This document shows, piece after piece, positions 8,694-27,786 of a stretch of 27,786 bases of DNA. Position 1 is the first letter of the stretch, and each line of letters starts with the position of its first letter. Under the pieces are notes generated by a model. It was not told the origin of the DNA, did no database searches, and worked only from the letters and a program-made list of their open reading frames with translations. This stretch comes from a virus. The stretch spans positions 1 to 27,786 of the IMG/VR virus record IMGVR_UViG_3300006919_000330. One strand, 5' to 3'. The translations under genes and the position numbers were made by a program.

Positions 8694-8861
8694 ATGAAAT
8701 TCAAATACACTGGCGAACAAGCCGAAGTCACAATCCGCGACACGACATTCCCGTCTGGAAAGGCGGTAGAGGTCAGTGACGAATTGGCGGCTAAGATTTC
8801 CAGACTTGATGACTTTAAAGAAGTAAAGAGCAAGGCGAAAAAAGATGGCAACAAAGTCTGA
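8694..8861 (+). CDS. 55-residue head-region hypothetical protein
   Basis: A small protein starting MKFKYTGEQAEVTIRDTTF and ending in a Lys-rich tail (KEVKSKAKKDGNKV). A strong AGGGGG ribosome site stands before the ATG. Short proteins of this build (a beta-strand start, a SGKAVEVSDELAAKI segment, basic end) commonly follow major capsid genes in phages, where they are annotated only as hypothetical. It overlaps the next gene by 17 bases. Likely real; role unknown, possibly head completion. Confidence 0.65.
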   Translation: MKFKYTGEQAEVTIRDTTFPSGKAVEVSDELAAKISRLDDFKEVKSKAKKDGNKV

Positions 8862-9231
8862 GGTTGTCGGGGCCGCACTTCGTCGTTTGGGCATCTTGTC
8901 CGTTGACGAAACGGTATCGGCAGATCAAATAGGATACTGCGGCGACGTGCTTGACGCGCTGCTATCGGAATTGCAAAGCCTTTGGGGGGTTACCTTCTCA
9001 TGGACTGTTGCGACAGTTCCCGCTGCTGGTTTCTTGCCGTTGTCATATCTTTTAGCGGCTGAGGTTGCGCCGCATTACATGGTCAACCCACCAGAGACAC
9101 CCGGTCGGTCGATGGCCCGTTTCCGCGCTTATGCACTGCCAGATGATAGGGATGACCGTCGGGACACGAACGATGATGGAATAGTTTCTGCGGACGAGGA
9201 AACTGCTGGCCTTGCAACGGCGTTTTACTGA
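8845..9231 (+). CDS. Tail accessory factor, P22 gp4-like
   Basis: A head-completion adaptor that in P22 binds beneath the portal ring and receives gp10. The 128-residue sequence starts MATKSEVVGAALRRLGILSVDETVSADQ, then DVLDALLSELQSLWGVTFSW and LPLSYLLAAEVAPHYMV, the helical pattern of the gp4 family; it is shorter than P22 gp4 (about 166 residues). The stop overlaps the next ATG (TGATG), and its neighbour is the gp10-like gene, which matches P22 gene order exactly. Assignment from pattern and synteny. Confidence 0.8.
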   Translation: MATKSEVVGAALRRLGILSVDETVSADQIGYCGDVLDALLSELQSLWGVTFSWTVATVPAAGFLPLSYLLAAEVAPHYMVNPPETPGRSMARFRAYALPDDRDDRRDTNDDGIVSADEETAGLATAFY

Positions 9232-10583
9232 TGCAATTCCCGCTCGCCATTCAATCCAGCCGCGACCCTGATAATATTGCGGCTAACCCGGAGCGTTTGG
9301 TGAACGCCTATAGCCTTCCGGTTCCGCGTGGGCATGAAATAAAGTCGGTGCTTGGGGAAACCCTGCTGACGTCAGTTTCGTCTGTATTCCTGCGGGCAAT
9401 GGATTCTTTTAATGGCACACTTTACGCCGCAACGGGCGGCAAGGCATATATGTTTAGTGCGTCGAATGTCGCCACACAAATAGGCACGATTACGGACGAT
9501 CAGAATACGGACATATCCAGCAACTTTGACGCAACATGCTGGACTGCTGGCGGGCAATATTTCGTTTACGATGGCAGCTTCACGGAGCCAACGGCGGGAA
9601 ATTTCTCATCCTTCGGGTCTGTTACGTTCTTGGCCGGTCGCACAATTCTAACCGAAAAGGACGGATCGCAATTCTGTTGGTCGGACATTTCCACACCAGA
9701 CACACTTCCCGCGCTAAACTTTGCGTCGGCTGAAAGCCGGGACGACAACCTAATTCGCGGCAAGGCGTTCAATGGGAACCTTTGGCTGTTCGGCGCGGAG
9801 TCAACAGAGGTTTGGTATCCAACCGGGGCTGGCGGCGCTGATGCGTTCGCGGCTGTTTCAGGTGGTGTTATAGAAACCGGCCTCAAGGCGTTCAATCTTG
9901 TTACGAGGTTTCCAGGCGGGCTGTTCCTGATCGGGAATGATGGGATTGCCTACATTACGGCTGGCGCTGCGTTTCAGCCGGTGTCTACCGTTCCTGTGGC
10001 TACCGCCATTTCGCAGGGTGAGCCGACAAACTGCTTTTATTATGAGGACGAGGGCAGCAAGTTTTGTGTTATCCGCTTCCGCGACCGTCCGGCATGGGTT
10101 TACGACATTACCACGGGGAAATGGGCTGAACGCGCCACTGGCGACCTTGATGCATGGCGGTCGGTTGTGTCGACACTTCACAACGGGTCTTGGCTTGTCG
10201 GTACGGACAGCGGGAACATCAGCACGTTGGGCCGCACAAACTCAGACGGGGACAAGGTTCTAACGCGCACAATCGTATCCGATAACCTCTACAATGATGG
10301 GGAACGTTTCAGGATTGCGGAGTTCGAACTGTTTGGGCGTATCGGTTGGAATACGGTGACTGACACAGAAACCAGAGCGCCAAAGTTAATGTTGCGCACA
10401 TCGCGAGACGGCGGGCTGTCTTGGGGGCAGGAACGCGTCCTGTCGCTTGGGTATCTTGGGGACTTCTCGGCAAGGGTTCTGGCAAGGTCCTTGGGGCAAT
10501 ACCGCAGGTTTACCAGCGAAATAAGAATGAATGACCCGGTTGATGTAACATTGACAGCATCGGCAAGGGTTCGTCCGCAATGA
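9231..10583 (+). CDS. Packaged DNA stabilization protein, P22 gp10-like tail-tube protein
   Basis: The hexameric tail factor that closes the portal channel after packaging. At 450 residues it is close to P22 gp10 (472). Recognisable parts are NPERLVNAYSLPVPRGHEIKS-type N-terminus, repeated beta-propeller-like strands (FNGTLYAATGGKAYMFS; TAGGQYFVYDGS; GKAFNGNLWLFGAESTEVWYPTG; FPGGLFLIGNDGIAYIT) and a C-terminal FRIAEFELFGRIG region. The segment with NCFYYEDEGSKFCVIRF also fits the family. It overlaps both neighbours by a few bases, so the tail-tube genes are translationally coupled. Confidence 0.88.
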   Translation: MQFPLAIQSSRDPDNIAANPERLVNAYSLPVPRGHEIKSVLGETLLTSVSSVFLRAMDSFNGTLYAATGGKAYMFSASNVATQIGTITDDQNTDISSNFDATCWTAGGQYFVYDGSFTEPTAGNFSSFGSVTFLAGRTILTEKDGSQFCWSDISTPDTLPALNFASAESRDDNLIRGKAFNGNLWLFGAESTEVWYPTGAGGADAFAAVSGGVIETGLKAFNLVTRFPGGLFLIGNDGIAYITAGAAFQPVSTVPVATAISQGEPTNCFYYEDEGSKFCVIRFRDRPAWVYDITTGKWAERATGDLDAWRSVVSTLHNGSWLVGTDSGNISTLGRTNSDGDKVLTRTIVSDNLYNDGERFRIAEFELFGRIGWNTVTDTETRAPKLMLRTSRDGGLSWGQERVLSLGYLGDFSARVLARSLGQYRRFTSEIRMNDPVDVTLTASARVRPQ

Positions 10584-11485
10584 CCGCGCCGAACATCAAT
10601 ATATCCTATGTTGACCAAAACGGCAGGCCAACGATTGAGTTTATGAAGCTGCTGCAAGACCAGCAGGCAAGAATCGAGGCGCTTGAGGGCGGGGGCGGGG
10701 ATATGAAGATAGCACAGGCCGAACGCGAAATTCTAGGGACATATGGGCAGAAAGTATCTGTTGCGGAAAAGCGTAAAAGCCTGTTGAAATTCGGCAAGAA
10801 TGAGTCTGTCGGCACGTCCTATCAGACGGTTTGGGCCAACGGCGGCAACGAGTCTTATGTGACGACCGATGCCATCGATACGGTGTCATCAAGTAATGCA
10901 GGCGATGCGGTCACAATGAAGATTGAGGGCCATACGGTAAGCGGCACCGGCGCTGATGCGCAATATACGTTCGTCATTCAGACGGTGGTGTTGAACGGGC
11001 AGACAAAGGTTGTGTTAGGAACACCTCTGGCCCGCGTTAGCCGTGCTTATATCGACAGCTCCACGCCATTGGCTGGGGATTTCTATGTGTATGAGGACAC
11101 CGCTATTTCCGGCGGCGTTCCGAGCGATTCAACAAAGGTGCATTTGAAGATCGATGGCTCTCTGGGCGAAACACAGTCGTTCAAGTGCGCCACAACGGTG
11201 TCCAACACTGATTACGGCATAATCACAGGCGGGTATGCGTCTATTTCAAAGAAAACATCTGCTTCGGTTGATTTTGTCATTGAGAAACGGCAACCAGGCG
11301 GCGTGTTCCGGCCCGCGGGCGGTCGCGTGACGCTAAATTCGGTTGGCCTATCAGCAATGGAAATCAAGTTTGATCCGTATTTAATCCTTCCGAAAAACTC
11401 GGATATTCGCGTTCGGGCTATTTCAACGGCGGCAAACACTGCGGTTGATGCGTCAATACAAATGTATCTAGCCATCGTCATTTGA
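10580..11485 (+). CDS. Tail protein in the tail-needle/plug position
   Basis: A 301-residue protein occupying the slot of the P22 tail needle gp26. The N-terminus INISYVDQNGRPTIEFMKLLQ resembles a short docking motif at the start of several podoviral tail proteins, followed by a brief coiled coil (QARIEALEGGGG) and then about 230 residues of beta-rich sequence (SYQTVWANGGNESYVTTDAI; YTFVIQTVVLNGQTKVVLG; VDFVIEKRQPGG; MEIKFDPYLILPKNSDIRVRAI). It lacks the long helical needle shaft of P22 gp26, so it may instead be a knob, plug or short fibre. The start ATG overlaps the gp10-like stop as ATGA. Structural role inferred from position. Confidence 0.6.
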   Translation: MTAPNINISYVDQNGRPTIEFMKLLQDQQARIEALEGGGGDMKIAQAEREILGTYGQKVSVAEKRKSLLKFGKNESVGTSYQTVWANGGNESYVTTDAIDTVSSSNAGDAVTMKIEGHTVSGTGADAQYTFVIQTVVLNGQTKVVLGTPLARVSRAYIDSSTPLAGDFYVYEDTAISGGVPSDSTKVHLKIDGSLGETQSFKCATTVSNTDYGIITGGYASISKKTSASVDFVIEKRQPGGVFRPAGGRVTLNSVGLSAMEIKFDPYLILPKNSDIRVRAISTAANTAVDASIQMYLAIVI

Positions 11486-11504
11486 CTTAGAAAGAGAGAA
11501 TAAC

Positions 11505-12143
11505 ATGGTACTTCCATTGCTAGGATTGCTCGGCGGCGTTATCGGTGCCATTGGGGCTTCAAGCGCGGCCAGAGCGCAGGCGTCGGCGGCTGAAAAAGAT
11601 CGTCAGGCGGCAAACTCAGTATACCAAGACCAGAAGCGAATGACCCGCCCTTATCGACAGGACGGGCGGAAATATAGAAACGCTCTTAATTTCGAAAACG
11701 GTATTGGCGCGCGGCCAAGCAATTATGCAGGCTTTCAGGAAACACCGGGATACCAGTTCCAACTTGCCGAGGGCCTGGACGCGGCAGAGAGCGGCGCGGC
11801 TGCACGTGGTGGCCTTATGTCCGGCGCGGCATTGCAGGCGCTACAGGCGCGGGGCAACGGCTTGGCGAGCATGGAATACGGGAACTACCTGAACCGTCTG
11901 GGGCAAGGCGTGGATCGCGGCATCGGCGCTATAAACATGACCGCGAATGCTGGGCAGAACTTTGTATCTAACAATTCAAACGCATTGGCCGGGATTGGCA
12001 ACGCTAAAGCGGCTGGTGCAATCGGCGTGTCAAATGCATTTAACAACGGCCTTGAGAACTACATCGGCCTGAGCCAGTATCAGAACGGCCTTAACAGCGG
12101 CGGCGGAAGTAGTTGGTTTGGTTCGCCCAACGGGGGCAGCTAA
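11505..12143 (+). CDS. DNA transfer (ejection) protein family
   Basis: A 212-residue protein of the Gly/Ala/Asn-rich type often annotated as phage DNA transfer or ejection protein. It starts with a hydrophobic glycine-rich stretch (LPLLGLLGGVIGAIGASS), then a helical AAEKDRQAANSVYQDQ region, then the family's best marker, ETPGYQFQLAEGLDAAESGA, followed by ARGGLMSGAALQALQARGNGL and MEYGNYLNRL. The tail is low-complexity Asn/Gly. It is thought to leave the virion with the DNA and help form a channel across the envelope, in the P22 gp7/gp20/gp16 region. The stop overlaps the following ATG (TAATG). Confidence 0.72.
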   Translation: MVLPLLGLLGGVIGAIGASSAARAQASAAEKDRQAANSVYQDQKRMTRPYRQDGRKYRNALNFENGIGARPSNYAGFQETPGYQFQLAEGLDAAESGAAARGGLMSGAALQALQARGNGLASMEYGNYLNRLGQGVDRGIGAINMTANAGQNFVSNNSNALAGIGNAKAAGAIGVSNAFNNGLENYIGLSQYQNGLNSGGGSSWFGSPNGGS

Positions 12144-12661
12144 TGGAACAGGAAATTCTCATTGGCTTAATGCGGCGCGGGATTCCAGAGCATATAGCGC
12201 GTGGCATTGTCGGCAACATGATGGTCGAAAGCGGCCTGAACCCCGGCATCAATGAGATTTCACCGATTGTTGAGGGGTCACGCGGCGGGTACGGGCTTAA
12301 CCAATGGACAGGGCCACGGCGTAAGCAATTCGAGGCATTTGCCGCAGAGCGAGGCGCGGCACCTGATGACTTAAATGCCCAGCTGGACTTCACCCTATGG
12401 GAACTGCAAAACACAGAAAGCAAGGCGGCGAACGCCCTTTACGGCGCGACGAATGCAACAGAAGCCGCGCAAATATACAGCAATCAGTTTCTTCGCCCCG
12501 GCATACCCCATTTGGATCGTCGTATCGCTGCGGCAAATCAATTAGGCGTTGTGCAACCGCAAAGCCAAAACCAACTACAGCAATTCGCTATGAAATCACA
12601 GACACAAGACGCAGCGCCATTTATGCGCCAAAGAAATGCACTAGCAACGGTAGGATTCTAA
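12143..12661 (+). CDS. Virion-associated lysozyme-like protein (phage tail lysozyme domain)
   Basis: A 172-residue protein matching the phage tail lysozyme fold: HIARGIVGNMMVESGLNP (candidate catalytic Glu29), GGYGLNQWTGPRRKQF at residues 48-63, LDFTLWELQ, a helical AANALYGATNATEAAQIY segment and RPGIPHLDRRIAAA. It would cleave peptidoglycan locally so the ejection proteins can cross the cell wall. The start is the ATG at 12143 (TAATG overlap); a longer frame from 12113 would read through the end of the preceding gene without a ribosome site. The C-terminal 45 residues are Gln-rich, as in other ejection-module proteins. Position among ejection genes argues against it being the endolysin. Confidence 0.8.
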   Translation: MEQEILIGLMRRGIPEHIARGIVGNMMVESGLNPGINEISPIVEGSRGGYGLNQWTGPRRKQFEAFAAERGAAPDDLNAQLDFTLWELQNTESKAANALYGATNATEAAQIYSNQFLRPGIPHLDRRIAAANQLGVVQPQSQNQLQQFAMKSQTQDAAPFMRQRNALATVGF

Positions 12662-12662
12662 C

Positions 12663-13760
12663 ATGCCATTAAACGCAAACCTCATCCTTGCAGGCAATCA
12701 GCCCAATTTCCTTGCACAAGTTCAGCAGGGCAACCAAGCGGCTGCGTTCCAGAACCAATCTAATCGAACGAATGACCTAGCCAACTTCAACCAAGCCAAT
12801 GGTGCTGCCGTTATGCGGGGCGACCAGAACGCTCTGAACGGTTATGCAAGGGTCGCTGGCCCAGAGGCAGCAATGGGGATGCAGGCGACACGTCAGGGGA
12901 TGGCTATCAGCGCGGAATACCTTGAAATGGCAAAGACTGAGGCAGCACGGCAAGCTGAGGCAGAGGCGGCTGACATTTCCGCAGAAGAAGCGGCGGCGGC
13001 ATCTGGTAGGCTAAAAGAGGCATGGACAAACCTTGCGGTCGTTCCAGACGAGGCAACGTATAACGCATTGGCGCAGAATTACGGCATTGACCCAAATCAA
13101 GCGCCATTTGCCGAGCGTGAATTGAACGCGGCTAAGGCCGCTGGATACATCGCCGTTCTGGACGCAAAGACCAAGGCGAACCCACCGGCAGATGTACCGG
13201 GTTTCGATGACAATTCTTCATTCAGGAAAGAGTTTAACGGCATCGCACAGGTCAAGGCATTTTCAGAGCAAGCACAGGCGTTTGGCAGGATAGAAGCATC
13301 AGCAAGCGACCCAAGCCCTGCGGGCGATCTGGCACTGATCTTTAACTTTATGAAGGTTCTTGACCCAGGGTCTGTTGTGCGGGAAAGCGAGTTTGCAACG
13401 GCGGAAAACGCGTCAGCTTGGTTGCAAGAAAGCGAGCAAATGGGCGTCACTGTGCCAAGGCCGGTTGCAAACGCGATTCGCAGAATGGCAACAGGAGAAC
13501 GATTGTCAGACGAACAGCGCAGCGATTTCGTCGGCAGAGCGAAAGGTATTTACGGATCAGCCGAAAGAGGTTTTGACGGGATTTATGGCCAGTATTCAGA
13601 GATTGCGAAACGATCAGGATTGAAGCCGGAGGACGTTCTGATTGATTATCGCTACAAGCCTAAGGCAGACGACACAAAGGGCGACGGTTCAAATTCGCAA
13701 ATTCTTCCAGAGGACATTCAGGCGCTACATAATGAATTTGGTGGCGGTGGTACGAATTGA
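12663..13760 (+). CDS. Ejection/internal virion protein (putative)
   Basis: A 365-residue, Ala/Gln/Asn-rich, largely helical protein. The most telling segment is FRKEFNGIAQVKAFSEQAQA followed by PSPAGDLALIFNFMKVLDPGSVVRESEFATA, a signature found in many phage internal or structural proteins of the ejection module. The N-terminus is Gln/Asn-rich, with VQQGNQAAAFQNQSNRTNDLA. It probably corresponds to one of P22 gp7, gp20 or gp16, which travel into the host with the DNA. Good TAGGA ribosome site; one base separates it from the lysozyme-like gene. Confidence 0.72.
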   Translation: MPLNANLILAGNQPNFLAQVQQGNQAAAFQNQSNRTNDLANFNQANGAAVMRGDQNALNGYARVAGPEAAMGMQATRQGMAISAEYLEMAKTEAARQAEAEAADISAEEAAAASGRLKEAWTNLAVVPDEATYNALAQNYGIDPNQAPFAERELNAAKAAGYIAVLDAKTKANPPADVPGFDDNSSFRKEFNGIAQVKAFSEQAQAFGRIEASASDPSPAGDLALIFNFMKVLDPGSVVRESEFATAENASAWLQESEQMGVTVPRPVANAIRRMATGERLSDEQRSDFVGRAKGIYGSAERGFDGIYGQYSEIAKRSGLKPEDVLIDYRYKPKADDTKGDGSNSQILPEDIQALHNEFGGGGTN

Positions 13761-18546: not shown

Positions 18547-21192
18547 GTGGCATTCAAGAGGAACTCAACTATAACCGCGACGGTTTCGGCTGGCGCTCTT
18601 ATGCCGTTCACAAATGCAACATCGGCATCGGCTGATGCGTCCACCCTGTCATTTGATGCTTCGGTCCCCGTTGGGGCGGACCCTAACGGATCACCGATCA
18701 TTCTAAGCACAAACGCCTTCAACATAACCGGCGATACGCCAACCTCAGAGATTTTGGCCTCATACGCTGCCAACGGAATAATGATTGACCCCTACAATTC
18801 TGATGGGTTTGCAGACCCCGGCCAAGGTTTTGACGGTCGCATGGGCAATCTTGGGGGTAGATCGGCGACATATACAGCAGCCCTTAATGTTGCGCCGTCG
18901 TTGGCGGGAAATGGGTCAATCGCTGTTTCGGCTGGGTGGGAAGGAACAATTGTAAAAGCGGTTCGTAACCCTTCCCCCGCGAACGGGTATACATACGTCC
19001 AACAGTATGATGTTTATACCGTTTTAGCAGCCGCGCCCTTAGCTGGGGCCTTCCGTCCGCCAGTGAGTGCGACTTCTAAGGCCATTCTTGCCTATGAAAG
19101 TGATTTCGACGCAACGGTGCTGCGCAGTCTGACAATGCCAGCAAGCTGCCCGACACTTGCCGCAGCAAGTGCTGAAATACCTTTGAACTTCCCGTGGTAT
19201 GGGTGGGGACAGGAACGCTTTCGCGGCTGGCACGCCTTTGTCACGCCAACCGATAGTGGATATTCGGCATATATTGCCGGGTACATGGCGAACTGGTGGG
19301 ACGCGATGCATTCCAGCGCAGAATCGGCGGCGGACAAAAAAGCCGCTGCACTGAAGGCAATATGTCACGGTTATGACGTTTACGGCTTATATCTTCGTGG
19401 CCACACAATGGGCGTTGGTGCGGGTCAATGGCACGGCCATCTTTCCCAAATGGCAATCGCTGGTTTTCTGACTGGAAATCAAGACCTGATCGACGCGGCC
19501 TTTAGCGGCAACATGATGGGCAACATGGTTGGTGCCTTGGAATGGGTAGCAGCGGCACAGGTTGGCGATGATGTAGATTACCCGTCGCCAAGCGGTGTGG
19601 GCAGTCGATATGACGACACATATTTTCCGCAAAATGTTGGGATGCCAGCATATAAGGCTGCGGGAACGGGGTCCGGTATATTCAGACGTTACGTGGCGAC
19701 ATCCTTATGGGGGATACACACCGAAGTATTTTCAGTGGCTCTCATGCAAAATGGGCCAACTGGACAAACTGGTTTTGAGGCTATGGCAAGGGGTGGCGTA
19801 TATGGTCCAACCAACGAATATGCAAAGTCATTGGCTTATGTAGACAGATCACACACATGGATTCCGTTCCAGTATGGGGAAACAGGAATCCCCACAAGTT
19901 CCATTGACAAGTACAATGATTGGCGCGGAACGCTGGAAACAGATGGCTGGACGCGCTGGACCGGCGTTCCTGATACCCCAGATCAAACTTGGGTCGGCAA
20001 TACGCCGGAAGATACATCGCACCGATTTACAGCATCGGCCACGGCGGGCGAAGTTGATTGGGACTATACAGGGTGGGAATTTAACACCGAAGGGTCTCCA
20101 ACCTATGACATTCGATATTCGCTAGACCCCAACAACGTGCAGTTCGTTGAAGTGACGGACGTTGCCATATCCGGCACACAAGCGGGGCTTATGTCTGGTG
20201 TGCAACATCTGTTCGGCTGGCGTCAGGTGACGGCGTCTGGTGCGGCTGTATGGACGCCAAACCATCCGATTGATTCCGACACAAGGACCGGACTTAGAAA
20301 CATAGCAACGCCAGCAGGGACGCCAACGCTTGCGGTTCCTAGTTATTCCGGCCAGCCGGTTCCATCCCTGCACTACAGCCCCTATCCTGCATGGGGTGCG
20401 CCGTGGTTCGAGCCAATCAATACGGGTGTTGATCTTGATGTCGATGTTGTCACAATCGCGGCTGGCGTTGGGTATCCATCTGGGTATGGTTCTTCTGGTA
20501 TTACCTTCTCGTACAGGTGGTTTCTCGACGGCGTTCCGCAAGCCGAAACCAGTTATTTATTCACGCGGGTTGCAGCCGATGCCGGGAAGGTTCTAACGGC
20601 GGGTGTGACAGCAACAAATAGTCAAGGTTCATCGGCTGAATACATTACAGCCGGGGCGACGATACCCGCGCTTACAACGATTCCAGCAGGGACAATCATC
20701 GACACCACGTTTGAGGGCCGTCATATAATTGATTACGAGGGTATGACCTTCACAGACACGGGCGGTTATTTGCCCTTCCACCTTCCAACGAAGCAATTTA
20801 AGGAAAACCCGTCCGTTGGTATGGGGGCGATGCTCTTTGAAAACGAAGGTAGTACGCCGAATACAAACGCTCAATTTACAAGGGCGTTCGAAGTCGCAAG
20901 CTACAGAATTCAAGCCACAATCGTCGCTAACCATCGCCGGGATGGTGACACCACATACTCATGGACGCATGACCAGCTTTTGCGGATTAGGAACGCCGCG
21001 AACAATGTAACGTATCTGAGTGTTGATCTAAGCAAGGGCGACGAAACGACAGAAAGCGTCATTACGATTGACGAAACATTCGCCGTTACTGTGGCGGAAC
21101 AAGGCAAGCTGACATTTTCACAGCCAACAAACAGCGTCGGTGGTATAGGTGGCCCAATATTCATGACGTCACTAACCATAACGAAGGTCTAA
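18547..21192 (+). CDS. Large receptor-binding protein/tailspike, possible glycan-active
   Basis: At 881 residues the largest protein in the window, starting with GTG just after the fibre stop. The N-terminus is Ser/Thr/Ala-rich; residues about 200-480 are rich in Trp, Tyr, Gly and His, with ADKKAAALKAICHGYDVYGL and VGAGQWHGHLSQMAIAGFL, a helical pattern reminiscent of alpha/alpha-toroid polysaccharide-active enzymes. Around residues 627-708 lies an Ig-like module (FSYRWFLDGVPQ, DAGKVLTAGVTATNSQGSS). The last 170 residues look like a jelly roll ending FMTSLTITKV. No beta-helix repeats like those of P22 gp9 are obvious. Adhesin role is well supported by position; enzymatic activity is a guess. 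Confidence 0.68.
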   Translation: MAFKRNSTITATVSAGALMPFTNATSASADASTLSFDASVPVGADPNGSPIILSTNAFNITGDTPTSEILASYAANGIMIDPYNSDGFADPGQGFDGRMGNLGGRSATYTAALNVAPSLAGNGSIAVSAGWEGTIVKAVRNPSPANGYTYVQQYDVYTVLAAAPLAGAFRPPVSATSKAILAYESDFDATVLRSLTMPASCPTLAAASAEIPLNFPWYGWGQERFRGWHAFVTPTDSGYSAYIAGYMANWWDAMHSSAESAADKKAAALKAICHGYDVYGLYLRGHTMGVGAGQWHGHLSQMAIAGFLTGNQDLIDAAFSGNMMGNMVGALEWVAAAQVGDDVDYPSPSGVGSRYDDTYFPQNVGMPAYKAAGTGSGIFRRYVATSLWGIHTEVFSVALMQNGPTGQTGFEAMARGGVYGPTNEYAKSLAYVDRSHTWIPFQYGETGIPTSSIDKYNDWRGTLETDGWTRWTGVPDTPDQTWVGNTPEDTSHRFTASATAGEVDWDYTGWEFNTEGSPTYDIRYSLDPNNVQFVEVTDVAISGTQAGLMSGVQHLFGWRQVTASGAAVWTPNHPIDSDTRTGLRNIATPAGTPTLAVPSYSGQPVPSLHYSPYPAWGAPWFEPINTGVDLDVDVVTIAAGVGYPSGYGSSGITFSYRWFLDGVPQAETSYLFTRVAADAGKVLTAGVTATNSQGSSAEYITAGATIPALTTIPAGTIIDTTFEGRHIIDYEGMTFTDTGGYLPFHLPTKQFKENPSVGMGAMLFENEGSTPNTNAQFTRAFEVASYRIQATIVANHRRDGDTTYSWTHDQLLRIRNAANNVTYLSVDLSKGDETTESVITIDETFAVTVAEQGKLTFSQPTNSVGGIGGPIFMTSLTITKV

Positions 21193-22201: not shown

Positions 22202-22641
22202 GTATGACGCAAACTATTGTAGGTGGCGCAATCATGGTCGTATTAGGTTCGGCGGTTCTGCAAGGCGTGTTGCCATCGCCTGCCCCGATTGTCGTTCACA
22301 AGCTAGAATATCTGGATGGGGACGTATTTCAGGACAGGACGATCACGTCTGACGTGCCGTTTTTCATTTCATGGGCAGCGCAAGTCGTGTTCGCAGATAC
22401 GAATAGCATTGTTCCTTGGTGCGCTGGTTCTGGGGCCAATCCATACCCGCCAGGCCATAAGATCGTTAGCTTCCCTCTTGAAGATTGGACGGGAAAGCCC
22501 GGTGTTTGCACACCCGATTCATTGCCTGACGGTGAATACAAACTTGCAGTTGCATGGCGGTGGGGCGATGAAACAACGGGGGCCGAAAGCGCAGTGTTTA
22601 TAATCAAGGACGGCGTTCAGGTTAAGGGTGACGACAAATGA
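22198..22641 (+). CDS. Membrane-anchored periplasmic protein, unknown
   Basis: A 147-residue protein. The start is the ATG at 22198 (GGGGGAAGGG upstream, ATGA overlap); a longer frame from 22105 has no ribosome site and a poor N-terminus. Residues 5-25 form an uncleaved signal-anchor (TIVGGAIMVVLGSAVLQGV), followed by a beta-type periplasmic domain with two Cys (PWCAGSG and PGVCTPD) that might form a disulphide, and strand-like KLAVAWRWGDET near the end. It sits directly upstream of the amidase. Possibly a lysis accessory or envelope-interacting factor; no family recognised. Confidence 0.6.
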   Translation: MSMTQTIVGGAIMVVLGSAVLQGVLPSPAPIVVHKLEYLDGDVFQDRTITSDVPFFISWAAQVVFADTNSIVPWCAGSGANPYPPGHKIVSFPLEDWTGKPGVCTPDSLPDGEYKLAVAWRWGDETTGAESAVFIIKDGVQVKGDDK

Positions 22642-23165
22642 GGCCAATCACAGAGATAATTGTTCACTGCACAGCAACCAGACCTGATTGGTGGGCAAAG
22701 AAGCCGCTCAAATCGCAGATTAACGAGGTTCGGCGCTGGCACGTCCAAGACCGTGGCTGGTCTGACATAGGCTATCATTACCTGATCGGCAGGGATGGCG
22801 GCATGGATGTTGGCAGGCCGATTGAAAAGGTCGGGGCGCATGTTAAAGGCCACAACACCGGAACAATCGGGATTAGTCTGTTTGGCGGCGCTGGTGCGGC
22901 GGCTGATGATAACTTCGCGGATCACTTCACAGACGAACAATCTGGCGCGTTGCAATCACTGATATTGCACTTGCAGAAAGAATATGGGCCGGGATTGAAG
23001 TTGTCAGGCCATAACGAATACGCCGCGAAGGGTTGCCCCGGCTTTCGTGTTGGCCCTTGGTGGAATAGCGTTCAGGCCGAAAAGCCCTACGGCGTCATTC
23101 AACCCACAAACATCATCGCTACAATCATCACCGCAATCATGCGGGCGTTAGGAGTAAAGAAATGA
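22638..23165 (+). CDS. Endolysin, N-acetylmuramoyl-L-alanine amidase (T7-lysozyme type)
   Basis: Cuts the bond between MurNAc and L-Ala in peptidoglycan to release progeny. The 175-residue protein is an Amidase_2 domain with zinc ligands H10 (IIVHCTAT), H124 (LSGHNEY) and C133 (KGCPGF), and the catalytic pair Y46 (DIGYHYLI) and K131, equivalent to H17, H122, C130, Y46 and K128 of T7 lysozyme. GAHVKGHNTGTIGISLFGG is also typical. The C-terminus (residues 155-172) is hydrophobic (NIIATIITAIMRALGV), which may aid membrane contact and is not part of the T7 enzyme. No signal peptide, so a holin is needed. Overlaps both neighbours by ATGA. Confidence 0.93.
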   Translation: MRPITEIIVHCTATRPDWWAKKPLKSQINEVRRWHVQDRGWSDIGYHYLIGRDGGMDVGRPIEKVGAHVKGHNTGTIGISLFGGAGAAADDNFADHFTDEQSGALQSLILHLQKEYGPGLKLSGHNEYAAKGCPGFRVGPWWNSVQAEKPYGVIQPTNIIATIITAIMRALGVKK

Positions 23166-23680: not shown

Positions 23681-24103
23681 CTAAACTCCAAGTGCGGCCA
23701 ATATCTTTCTTTGCAATCCTTCGTCCCTCTCAATTACGTTCATCAGGTCACGAAATTCTTGCTCATCCTTGGCATAGTAGTGCGTCCGCATCACCGGAGA
23801 CCATGATTTCATAGAGGTGTATTGTGCGGGAATATCCATTGGCGCACGTTGGTCATGGTAGCGTTGTTGCTGCAACCTTTCCTTTGCCCTCCACCAGTTG
23901 CTTCGATGTTCATCGAAGGTTTCCAATTCTTCCTGTGGTATGGTATGATCTTCGACCTCATACATTTCACCGCCTATCGACGAAATCGCTGACTTCATCG
24001 CGCCGCTTGACAAAACTTGTGCTTCTGCTGCCTTCGCGGTCGCTGTCAATACGGCAGGCATTGCCATGATTGCCCGCAGCGCCGTGCGTCTACCCATGCT
24101 CAT
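23681..24103 (-). CDS. Exported protein with Tat-like signal, unknown
   Basis: A 140-residue protein, last gene of the leftward operon. The N-terminus MSMGRRTALRAIMAMPAVL continues into an Ala-rich stretch ending AAEA, which resembles a short twin-arginine (Tat) leader with RR at residues 5-6; it could also be a plain Sec signal. The rest is hydrophilic and charged (ELETFDEHRSNWWRAKERLQQQRYHDQR), with helical repeats near the end (DEQEFRDLMNVIERDEGLQRKIL). No catalytic motif seen. A strong AAGGGACGG ribosome site precedes the ATG, and its stop directly abuts the o-spanin stop from the opposite strand. Confidence 0.6.
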   Translation of the reverse strand: MSMGRRTALRAIMAMPAVLTATAKAAEAQVLSSGAMKSAISSIGGEMYEVEDHTIPQEELETFDEHRSNWWRAKERLQQQRYHDQRAPMDIPAQYTSMKSWSPVMRTHYYAKDEQEFRDLMNVIERDEGLQRKILAALGV

Positions 24104-24923: not shown

Positions 24924-25502
24924 TCAATAAGCCCGCAACTTCCGCAACATAACCAACGCACCGGCCAGCAATAGGCCACCAGCGGGCAGCGGAATAGGTG
25001 CAGGCGGTGATGGTGGAACAACGGGCGGTTCGATCACAGCAACGTCATACGGGCAACCAATGCGGAACGTGGCTATCTTGCCTTCCTTGGCAATCTTTGA
25101 GCCGCGTGTGACGCAGCCTGTGGTGCCGTGGAAGGCCGCTGACCAGTAGTCCGGCACGTCCTTGTAGAAAAAGATGAACGCCTTGTTTGTGGTCGTTGTG
25201 ATGCGTGTGCGCGTCGTGGTGACGTGCTGCCCGCCCATAAAGCGAAAGTCCATGTTGGCAATGGAAAATGTTGATCCGCGCCCTTTTTCGTTCAGGCCGT
25301 TTTTATAGCTGATGGTTGCCCAGTCAAATCCGTCTGACTGCCCGCCGTCCAGCAACTTGATATATGATCGGTTGCTTGATCCCACGCGCTGGATGGTTGT
25401 GTCGTCGGTGAATGATACGGTTGCGGAATTGGCTTGCCATGCTGCGAATGATGCAGCGGCGATGATTGCCCAGCCTGCGATGATGTTGCGTTTGTGGTTC
25501 AT
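24924..25502 (-). CDS. Exported protein with VPLPA-CTERM-type sorting signal
   Basis: A 192-residue protein. The ATG at 25502 follows GAGGAGAACGAA; the 13 residues upstream in frame are ignored. The N-terminus RNIIAGWAIIAAASFAAWQ with ANSA at 24-27 is a cleavable Sec signal. The mature part is beta-rich with two Cys (TTGCVTRG, RIGCPYD), then a Pro-rich linker (VVPPSPPAP) and the tail IPLPAGGLLLAGALVML followed by RKLRAY: motif, hydrophobic helix and basic end, the three-part pattern of VPLPA-CTERM (PEP-CTERM-like) exosortase substrates. In bacteria such tails are cut by exosortase/archaeosortase-type enzymes and the protein reaches the cell surface or exopolysaccharide. I know of no phage use of it. 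No sortase gene is visible here. Confidence 0.8.
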   Translation of the reverse strand: MNHKRNIIAGWAIIAAASFAAWQANSATVSFTDDTTIQRVGSSNRSYIKLLDGGQSDGFDWATISYKNGLNEKGRGSTFSIANMDFRFMGGQHVTTTRTRITTTTNKAFIFFYKDVPDYWSAAFHGTTGCVTRGSKIAKEGKIATFRIGCPYDVAVIEPPVVPPSPPAPIPLPAGGLLLAGALVMLRKLRAY

Positions 25503-25512
25503 TTCGTTCTCC

Positions 25513-25656
25513 TCAATCATGTACCTGAACCCATTGGACAAACAGGCGATTGCTTGTCGTGTCCGCGCAGGTCATTTTCTGGAACATTCCATCCTGCTGC
25601 CGTATCTTGTAGTGGATGGTGCCGTTCTTTATCTTCAGCTTAGTTAGATCAATCAT
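25513..25656 (-). CDS. 47-residue hypothetical protein
   Basis: Starts MIDLTKLKIKNGTIHYKIRQQ and ends NRLFVQWVQVHD; basic, probably beta-rich, with one Cys. GAGGGG lies about ten bases upstream of the ATG at 25656. A longer frame reaching 25896 runs antisense-like through the barrel gene and is rejected. It sits between two exported-protein genes, ten bases before the start of the next. Unknown function. Confidence 0.5.
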   Translation of the reverse strand: MIDLTKLKIKNGTIHYKIRQQDGMFQKMTCADTTSNRLFVQWVQVHD

Positions 25657-25684: not shown

Positions 25685-26143
25685 TTAAAACTTCGCTTCC
25701 AGCCCGAAGGCTGCGACCAGCGGCAATTTCTTCGCGCCACCCGGCATAAGCCGCAGTGACAGGCCAACAGAACCGCCGGGATACCACACAGCCTGTCCAC
25801 CACCGACAGGGACAACATCGCCCCACGCAATCGGGAACCAGTCTGTATAGCCTTTGTATGTCGCCAGCCCGATGAACGGCCCAACTTCCAGCGCATCCGT
25901 TTTGATCAGGTCATAGCCAGCCGTCAGCGTGTATGACATTTCGTTGAAGCTGTTCCTGTACGCGCCTGCCGTTATGTCGGTCCGGTCGAAGTCCCACGTC
26001 AGCGCAAGGCCGGGGTTCACTTCGTTGAAGTCATAGCCGTGCGATCCGAAATGCTTTGAACCCGCAATGATGCTGACGCGATCCGGCACGATGTCGGCAT
26101 GTGCGCTTGTGGCTGCTAGGCATATGGCGATGGCAAGCTTCAT
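25685..26143 (-). CDS. Predicted outer-membrane beta-barrel protein
   Basis: A 152-residue protein with a clear Sec signal (MKLAIAICLAATSAHA, cleavage before D17). The mature part alternates short strands typical of small barrels: DRVSIIAGSKHFGSHGYDFNE, NPGLALTWDFDRTDITAGAY, MSYTLTAGYDL, VGPFIGLATYKG and GGSVGLSLRLMPG, and it ends KLPLVAAFGLEAKF, with a terminal Phe as outer-membrane proteins require. The NPGLAL and AGAYRNSF pattern recalls a family of small predicted outer-membrane proteins found in several tailed phages. Likely located in the host outer membrane, where it could block receptors or alter permeability (inference). AAGGA precedes the ATG. Confidence 0.75.
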   Translation of the reverse strand: MKLAIAICLAATSAHADIVPDRVSIIAGSKHFGSHGYDFNEVNPGLALTWDFDRTDITAGAYRNSFNEMSYTLTAGYDLIKTDALEVGPFIGLATYKGYTDWFPIAWGDVVPVGGGQAVWYPGGSVGLSLRLMPGGAKKLPLVAAFGLEAKF

Positions 26144-26678: not shown

Positions 26679-26879
26679 TTAGAAATCAGGCCTTGTTTTC
26701 GGCCTAACCGATACAACAGGCGCTAGGGTATATTCACAGAACATATCCGCCGCGTGGCCCTGACTTTCGATGAACCCAACAGCAACCGCCCCCCATGAAC
26801 ATTCAACGGGGGCGGTTGTTTTCCATTCAACGCCTTGAACTGACGCTAGGGTGATAGTGACGAAGGCTAGGGTGTTCAT
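26679..26879 (-). CDS. Small protein with hydrophobic N-terminus
   Basis: A 66-residue protein starting MNTLAFVTITLASVQGVEW, a possible short signal peptide lacking the usual positive charge, followed by APVECSWGAVAVGFIESQGHAADMFCEYTLAP with two Cys and a basic end (RPKTRPDF). The ATG at 26879 overlaps the previous stop (ATGA); the longer frame to 26906 has no advantage. Function unknown; possibly a small secreted protein with a disulphide. Its coding sequence contains the perfect inverted repeat at 26783-26818. Confidence 0.55.
   Translation of the reverse strand: MNTLAFVTITLASVQGVEWKTTAPVECSWGAVAVGFIESQGHAADMFCEYTLAPVVSVRPKTRPDF
26783..26818. repeat. Perfect 11-bp inverted repeat inside a gene
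   Basis: CAACCGCCCCC (26783-26793) and GGGGGCGGTTG (26808-26818) pair perfectly with a 14-base loop. On the plus strand it is followed by TTTT (26819-26822), which looks like a terminator for rightward transcription; on the minus strand, the coding direction, no T tract follows. Confidence 0.6.
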
Positions 26880-27094
26880 GGCGTCACGTCTGCACGGGTG
26901 TTCCATGCGTCAGCGGCTTCTTGCGTCGTTGGAAAGTCGCAGGAAAAGTCGCCTAGATCGTCCGACATGCTATCACCCATGCACGGCGTGTCGCTTACGC
27001 AGGTGACTGAATAATACGGAACGTTACGCGCAAGGCTTGCCACGATCTCTGCCTCGCCACCGCAAAACGGGCATGGCTTTAAAAAAATGTCCAT
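26876..27094 (-). CDS. Lar-like restriction alleviation protein (putative)
   Basis: A 72-residue zinc-ribbon protein: LKPCPFCGGEAEI at residues 5-17, a second Cys pair (TCVSDTPC, C32 and C38) and EAADAWNTRA at 59-68. This order is the signature of the Lar/phage zinc-ribbon family, named after the Rac prophage protein that eases type I restriction. Many family members have no tested function, so anti-restriction activity is only a family-based suggestion. The AAGGAG ribosome site before the ATG is strong; the stop overlaps the next gene's start. Confidence 0.72.
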   Translation of the reverse strand: MDIFLKPCPFCGGEAEIVASLARNVPYYSVTCVSDTPCMGDSMSDDLGDFSCDFPTTQEAADAWNTRADVTP

Positions 27095-27109: not shown

Positions 27110-27463
27110 CTATAGGCTGTTAATCTTTTCCTCGACCCAATCAAGCCACTCATAATCCTTGCCATACTCGGCTTCCCACGTTTCCTGCCCGTTATGGTAT
27201 CCGATCTTGCCCTCATCGCCTGGTATTGGCCGCAGCTTGTTGTGGTGGGAATGGCAGAGCGGGATTGTCTTTGTGTCTGCTTCCTTCGCGCGACTGAACC
27301 GGCCTGACTTGCAGTGATGCACTTCGGTGCGCGAGTTTTGGCGCATGAAGAATTCGTAGCAGATCACACACGGCAGACCAGCCACCAGTGCTAGGTGGTT
27401 TGGGTTCTTCGGTTCCTTTGGCGTCTTTTGCGCCACTGGACGCTGTGGTATTCCGTGGGCCAT
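27110..27463 (-). CDS. HNH nuclease, P1 Ref-like (putative)
   Basis: A 117-residue protein with a Cys/His metal site: C32 and C35 (PCVIC), H49 and H50 (EVHHCKSGRFSR), C70 with H73 and H74 (TIPLCHSHHNKL), then IGYHNGQETWEAEYG near residues 88-101. This is the core of the phage P1 Ref family, a RecA-dependent HNH nuclease that boosts recombination, also grouped with DUF968-type proteins. It lacks the long basic N-terminus of P1 Ref but keeps a Lys/Pro-rich start. The start overlaps the upstream stop (TAATG), so it is coupled to the truncated gene at the window edge, probably another recombination gene. Confidence 0.72.
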   Translation of the reverse strand: MAHGIPQRPVAQKTPKEPKNPNHLALVAGLPCVICYEFFMRQNSRTEVHHCKSGRFSRAKEADTKTIPLCHSHHNKLRPIPGDEGKIGYHNGQETWEAEYGKDYEWLDWVEEKINSL

Positions 27464-27786
27464 TACAGAGGCTCCGGCAGGGTCAGCACAGCGCCCTTTT
27501 CCGTCCAGAAGATAAAGACCATATCCATGTATTGCGTCATAGCCTTCACCTTCATCAGCGACGTTACCGGCAGAAAATCCATCACCTCTAGCTTCTGCTC
27601 GTACGTCAGTGGCTTGATTGATTTATCATACATTTCCCTGAAATCCGTGTCATCGCCTCGCAAGATTGGAACACCGATCCGCAGCTTAGATTCGCGCCGC
27701 GCTTCAACAGCGGTCCACCCATCGAGCCTGCCCGCCTCGGCGTACCACTTATGCGAAAGGCGGTTTTGTGCCAGTGTGCGGTCCTC
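27463..27786 (-). CDS. Conserved phage protein, recombination-region, 5'-truncated
   Basis: The frame is open at the right edge, so the N-terminus is missing; 107 residues are visible. Recognisable stretches are RTLAQNRLSHKWYAEAGR, ARRESKLRIGVPILRGDD, SIKPLTYEQKLEVMDFLPVT and TQYMDMVFIFW. This pattern (SLxQN near the start, GxPIL, LxYEQKL, PVTSLM) is common in phage proteins that sit beside recombination nucleases, like NinB/Orf-type ssDNA-binding mediators, but the family assignment is uncertain. An internal TTG at 27663 is not a start, because the frame and the conserved pattern continue upstream. Confidence 0.7.
   Translation of the reverse strand, partial: EDRTLAQNRLSHKWYAEAGRLDGWTAVEARRESKLRIGVPILRGDDTDFREMYDKSIKPLTYEQKLEVMDFLPVTSLMKVKAMTQYMDMVFIFWTEKGAVLTLPEPL

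Follow-up and report, generated by a model that had tools for sequence, protein, structure and literature searches.

A phage gene for a predicted exported protein with a VPLPA-like C-terminal tail, and similar sorting tails in unrelated phages

Gene Content and Organization of the Locus

The window (the whole stretch of DNA that was analysed) is a 27.8-kb linear IMG/VR record that carries genes for a terminase, a portal (phrog_156), a major head protein, a head-closure protein and a DNA-ejection protein in a P22-like layout. Within it, the gene here called P0001 starts at an ATG at position 25502 and occupies the minus strand. Its features and those of its surroundings are listed below.

22638-23165, plus strand: phage amidase (endolysin), flanking P0001 on its other side (PF01510; phrog_822, E 6e-48)
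24924-25502, minus strand: P0001, a 192-residue predicted exported protein with a C-terminal VPLPA-like sorting tail
24927-24995, minus strand: sorting tail of P0001, IPLPAGGLLLAGALVMLRKLRAY, residues 170-192, with motif, hydrophobic helix and basic end (TIGR03370 and our own HMM)
24996-25031, minus strand: Pro-rich linker of P0001, EPPVVPPSPPAP, residues 158-169
25422-25502, minus strand: putative Sec signal peptide of P0001, MNHKRNIIAGWAIIAAASFAAWQANSA, residues 1-27, with a hydrophobic peak at residues 5-22
25509-25514, minus strand: GAGGAG ribosome-binding site of P0001, spaced 6 nt from the ATG
25513-25656, minus strand: 47-residue open reading frame that ends 10 bp before the P0001 start
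25685-26143, minus strand: small PagP-like outer-membrane protein that itself carries a signal peptide; one gene separates it from P0001 on the upstream side (phrog_3600, E 7e-14)
26876-27094, minus strand: Lar-like restriction alleviation protein (PF14354, 36.8 bits; phrog_599)
27110-27463, minus strand: Ref-like RecA-dependent nuclease (PF16786, 39.7 bits)
27463-27663, minus strand: NinB/Orf-like recombination protein (phrog_7283, E 3.8e-11)

The NinB, Ref-like and Lar genes stand upstream of P0001 on the same strand, with the amidase and the structural genes on its other side, and the P0001 gene belongs to an early or host-takeover operon of the phage. The 47-residue frame is packed so tightly against P0001 that a single transcript is suggested. 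Since phage genes occur on both flanks, the stretch is phage DNA and not host chromosome, in agreement with the original prediction. The GC content of the gene (55.4%) was judged to be like that of the remainder of the phage (52.5%).

Several other features of the record deserve description. The PagP-like protein possibly alters lipid A during infection. A 140-residue frame at 23681-24103 (minus strand) opens with a Tat-like start, MSMGRRTALRAIMAMPAVLTATAKA, matches no family and is a third possibly exported protein on that strand; no relatives of it or of the PagP-like protein were found in IMG/VR. On the plus strand, an 881-residue protein (18547-21192) has a tail-spike-like placement and no family match. 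The overlap of record L002 with the window is exact, and L002 extends 853 bases further to the left; neither L002 nor L003 reaches P0001. In the comparison of L003 with window positions 8694-13169, identity falls from 99.8% to about 97% after position 8699, where about 190 additional bases are present; recombination is one reading, and an insertion after the major head gene is another.

Architecture of P0001 and Nature of Its Tail

The N-terminus of P0001 consists of a charged start (MNHKR) and a hydrophobic segment, together within residues 1-22, as expected of the N-terminal signal of an exosortase substrate; a possible cleavage site, judged by eye, lies near NSA/TV. The body of 142 residues is rich in Thr (12.7%), with 7.7% Ser and 3.5% Asn. 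It holds two cysteines (1.4%) and 11.3% Lys + Arg, both above typical PEP-CTERM bodies (reference values from PMC1569441). At the other end, a hydrophobic peak spans residues 168-191 with RKLR close to its end. The PLPA motif, the hydrophobic helix and the basic residues follow one another within about 25 residues of the C-terminus. The Sec-type signal, the Pro-rich linker and the tail with basic residues that had been described for this protein were thus all seen, and the minus strand is to be added to that description. The "beta-rich body" fared less well: strands do appear in an AlphaFold model, as does a helix at residues 176-190, but confidence is low (pLDDT 39). The single-sequence models of P0001 and of its PagP-like neighbour (pLDDT 30) were set aside as unusable, and their Foldseek matches as meaningless.

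The best NCBIfam match of P0001 is TIGR03370 (VPLPA-CTERM), at 15.1 bits and E 0.017 over 18,950 models. The match covers residues 170-183 and model positions 1-14 of 25 only, and its score does not reach the curated cut-off (25.35 bits); the proposed check against this model returned the expected family, though short of certified membership. Because the match was suggestive but sub-threshold, we trained a tail HMM on 15 VPLPA tails taken from other viral contigs, leaving P0001 out. On this model P0001 scored 21.5 bits, at the low end of the leave-one-out range of the 15 tails themselves (18.9-58.9). None of 83 hydrophobic C-termini reached that score, nor did any of 5000 shuffles of the P0001 tail, the best of which came near at 20.3 bits. 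Among 2,503 control C-termini of viral contigs lacking P[LE]P, three reached it, and all three resemble exosortase-type tails. The motif drives part of the score, since the 15 tails were picked by PLPA.

Judged by these sequence comparisons, the match of the P0001 tail exceeds chance. The TIGR03370 match and the controlled HMM support the assignment to the exosortase-substrate type made by the original prediction, and the tail is best described as VPLPA-like rather than as a certified TIGR03370 member: a good but sub-threshold case.

Sorting Tails on Other Phage Contigs

A search for the same kind of tail in other phages had been suggested, and pattern scans of IMG/VR found it, with roughly 100 contigs bearing C-terminal VPLPA or PEP-CTERM tails, many of them with terminases. 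The pattern [VI]PLPA[GA]xLLLxG gave six matches, one of which is a true C-terminal tail (L048), while a scrambled-motif control gave three matches and no C-terminal one. A second VPLPA spacing returned 35 contigs; 20 passed the automatic tail test and 17 were accepted, the other three (L063, L074 and L084) being dropped as look-alikes without a basic end. The tail protein of L073, another match to the VPLPA pattern, had no NCBIfam match at E 0.01. At least 120 contigs matched the PEP-CTERM pattern, and 72 of the first 80 matches listed are C-terminal tails.

A phrog_2 terminase was present in 26 of 50 tail-bearing records. Among the remainder there may be incomplete contigs, phages whose terminases are of other kinds, or host DNA that entered the collection, and true phage cases are therefore fewer than the contigs counted. 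Grouped by their bodies, the tail proteins form 68 clusters: one family has 38 members, another has 15, and many clusters are singletons; a few of the assigned members are false.

Individual cases place such genes in several phage contexts. In L048, a 170-residue protein scoring 32.8 bits against TIGR03370 (cut-off 25.35) is surrounded by a terminase, a portal and two ParB-methylases. The PEP-CTERM genes of L099 and L153 abut a portal of phrog_156, the portal family of the window, a few kb after the terminase, and the L099 protein reaches 26.2 bits against TIGR02595 (cut-off 16). In L118 and L155, PEP-CTERM genes neighbour the major head protein and the portal. Six prophage-like records whose names indicate an origin in isolate genomes (L053, L067, L069, L071, L072 and L077) carry a VPLPA gene that comes immediately after the final large gene on the plus strand of the late region and is convergent with it. 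These six score 20.8-31.8 bits against TIGR03370 and three of them exceed the cut-off, with L067 (22.7) and L071 (20.8) among those below it. The VPLPA-gene cluster of L069 includes a tail-fibre gene most like that of Paracoccus phage Shpa, and an integrase lies 3 kb beyond the VPLPA gene of L072. No isolated-phage relatives were found for the tail proteins of L069, L099 and L118.

These gene contexts and the 68 body clusters show that sorting tails occur repeatedly, in phages that are not related to one another and attached to unrelated bodies. That certified tails turn up again and again in other phages is a stronger and more interesting result than P0001 alone.

Two groups of tail proteins were noted along the way. 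The 38 related PEP-CTERM proteins on viral contigs (L088-L207), one of which adjoins the major head protein gene in L118, apparently form an undescribed phage gene family. The same 150-residue protein, which has a hydrophobic segment near its N-terminus and ends in a PEP-CTERM tail, occurs in L101, L134 and L165, which are large contigs (56-103 kb) without a phrog_2 terminase match.

Proposed Role of P0001 and Alternative Explanations

We propose, with a probability of about 0.6, that P0001 is a phage-encoded substrate for a host exosortase and that the infected cell displays or releases it. The protein would be made alongside the host-takeover genes (NinB, Ref, Lar and the PagP-like envelope protein) and exported by Sec. 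Its C-terminal helix would hold it in the inner membrane, with the RKLR end in the cytosol, until the host exosortase recognised IPLPA and removed the tail; the Thr-rich body would then be freed, or re-attached at the cell surface or in the matrix. The likeliest use is to alter the cell envelope during infection or lysogeny, for instance so that superinfection is blocked, and P0001 may mask receptors or change exopolysaccharide. The PagP-like neighbour suggests a set of envelope-modifying proteins.

P0001 has every element of the architecture described by Haft et al. 2006 (PMC1569441): signal, unique body, motif, helix and basic end. As originally stated, the window encodes no exosortase (PF09721 was looked for), and none scored over the cut-off in the 33 tail-bearing records tested, which fits use of a host enzyme. 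Against this reading stand the sub-cut-off score, the short basic end (RKLR) and the elevated Cys (1.4%) and Lys + Arg (11.3%) contents.

The main rival, which we regard as unlikely, is that the tail does no more than anchor the C-terminus in the inner membrane and that P0001 is a tethered periplasmic protein with no exosortase involved, such as a superinfection-exclusion protein blocking DNA entry. Many phage exclusion proteins are small and membrane-anchored, and the short basic end and a sub-cut-off match confined to the first 14 of 25 TIGR03370 positions would suit such a protein. However, the 83 hydrophobic C-termini included no score like that of P0001, and its exact I-P-L-P-A-G with a Pro-rich linker is the layout of exosortase substrates, seen likewise in L083 and L141.

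It is less probable still that the gene is host cargo, a bacterial VPLPA-CTERM gene captured by chance and of no benefit to the phage. Repeated capture would give body clusters that are mostly singletons, as found among the 68, but P0001 has a good ribosome-binding site, tight operon packing and phage-like GC, and the families of 38 and 15 tail proteins persist on other viral contigs, some beside head genes. A lysis (spanin-like) or virion protein is the most improbable of these explanations. An N-terminal hydrophobic segment combined with a C-terminal anchor would be compatible with it, as would the amidase 1.8 kb away, yet P0001 lies in the NinB-Ref-Lar operon on the strand opposite to the lysis and structural genes, has no visible lipobox and matches nothing in PHROGs.

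Relation to Known Systems

Like P0001, the VPLPA-CTERM proteins of TIGR03370 combine an N-terminal signal, a unique body, a [VI]PLPA motif, a hydrophobic helix and a basic end; P0001 differs in being phage-encoded, in its score (15.1 versus 25.35 bits) and in its short basic end. In the PEP-CTERM/EpsH model (Haft et al. 2006, PMC1569441), proteins are exported by Sec, retained by the C-terminal helix, cut at the motif, and released or attached outside. P0001 shares this architecture, the proposed processing and the Thr-rich, unrelated bodies, whereas in PEP-CTERM/EpsH substrates and enzyme reside in one bacterial genome and in the present case the substrate lies in a phage and the window encodes no enzyme. 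The tail proteins of L048, L053, L069, L077, L099, L118 and L153 are phage-borne like P0001, and those of their records that were tested lack an exosortase; they have unrelated bodies, different phages and different gene positions, and the six that were scored (L048, L053, L069, L077, L099 and L118) reach a curated cut-off, unlike P0001.

One study (PMC11003980) counts 13 TIGR03118 proteins, which bear an exosortase-interaction C-terminus, among the genes that hot-spring viruses are reported to have gained by horizontal transfer. These also place exosortase-type C-termini on virus contigs, but they belong to another family and are mentioned as a count of transferred genes, without phage context or mechanism. 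This mention aside, a full-text literature search that covered few subscription journals returned no papers on phage-encoded PEP-CTERM or VPLPA-CTERM proteins. Envelope-modifying phage morons offer a further parallel: the operon neighbour of P0001 is PagP-like and both proteins have putative signal peptides, although P0001 could be assigned to no known enzyme family.

Some phages may use the host sorting machine to decorate infected cells. More broadly, and only tentatively, use of the host exosortase could be a general strategy of unrelated phages, giving them control over what infected and lysogenic cells display or shed, with tail genes located within early operons, next to head genes or where prophages carry their morons. 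Such a strategy would affect superinfection, aggregation and biofilm. Exosortase substrates have been known as proteins of the bacterial matrix and surface. Were phages to provide such substrates themselves, host sorting would become part of phage-host conflict and lysogenic conversion, and the many unexplained exosortase-tail genes on viral contigs would gain a testable role.

Relatives and Host of the Phage

The P0001 body had no relatives among the phages, plasmids, IMG/VR records and GTDB species genomes searched, and a BLAST search with the consensus tail gave no match, the query probably having been masked as low complexity. Searches for the host with the portal and terminase returned distant relatives only. 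The nearest terminases come from spring viromes, a Xanthomonas phage and a Rhodovastum plasmid; the nearest portals, at 42-46% identity, belong to Pseudanabaena phages and CBW1004C-Prop1, so the Rhodobacterales host that had been suggested is possible but unsupported. The CBW1004C-Prop1 portal (MZ188970.1, L208), 42% identical to that of the window over 90%, is annotated as 6-phosphogluconolactonase, which is likely a misannotation.
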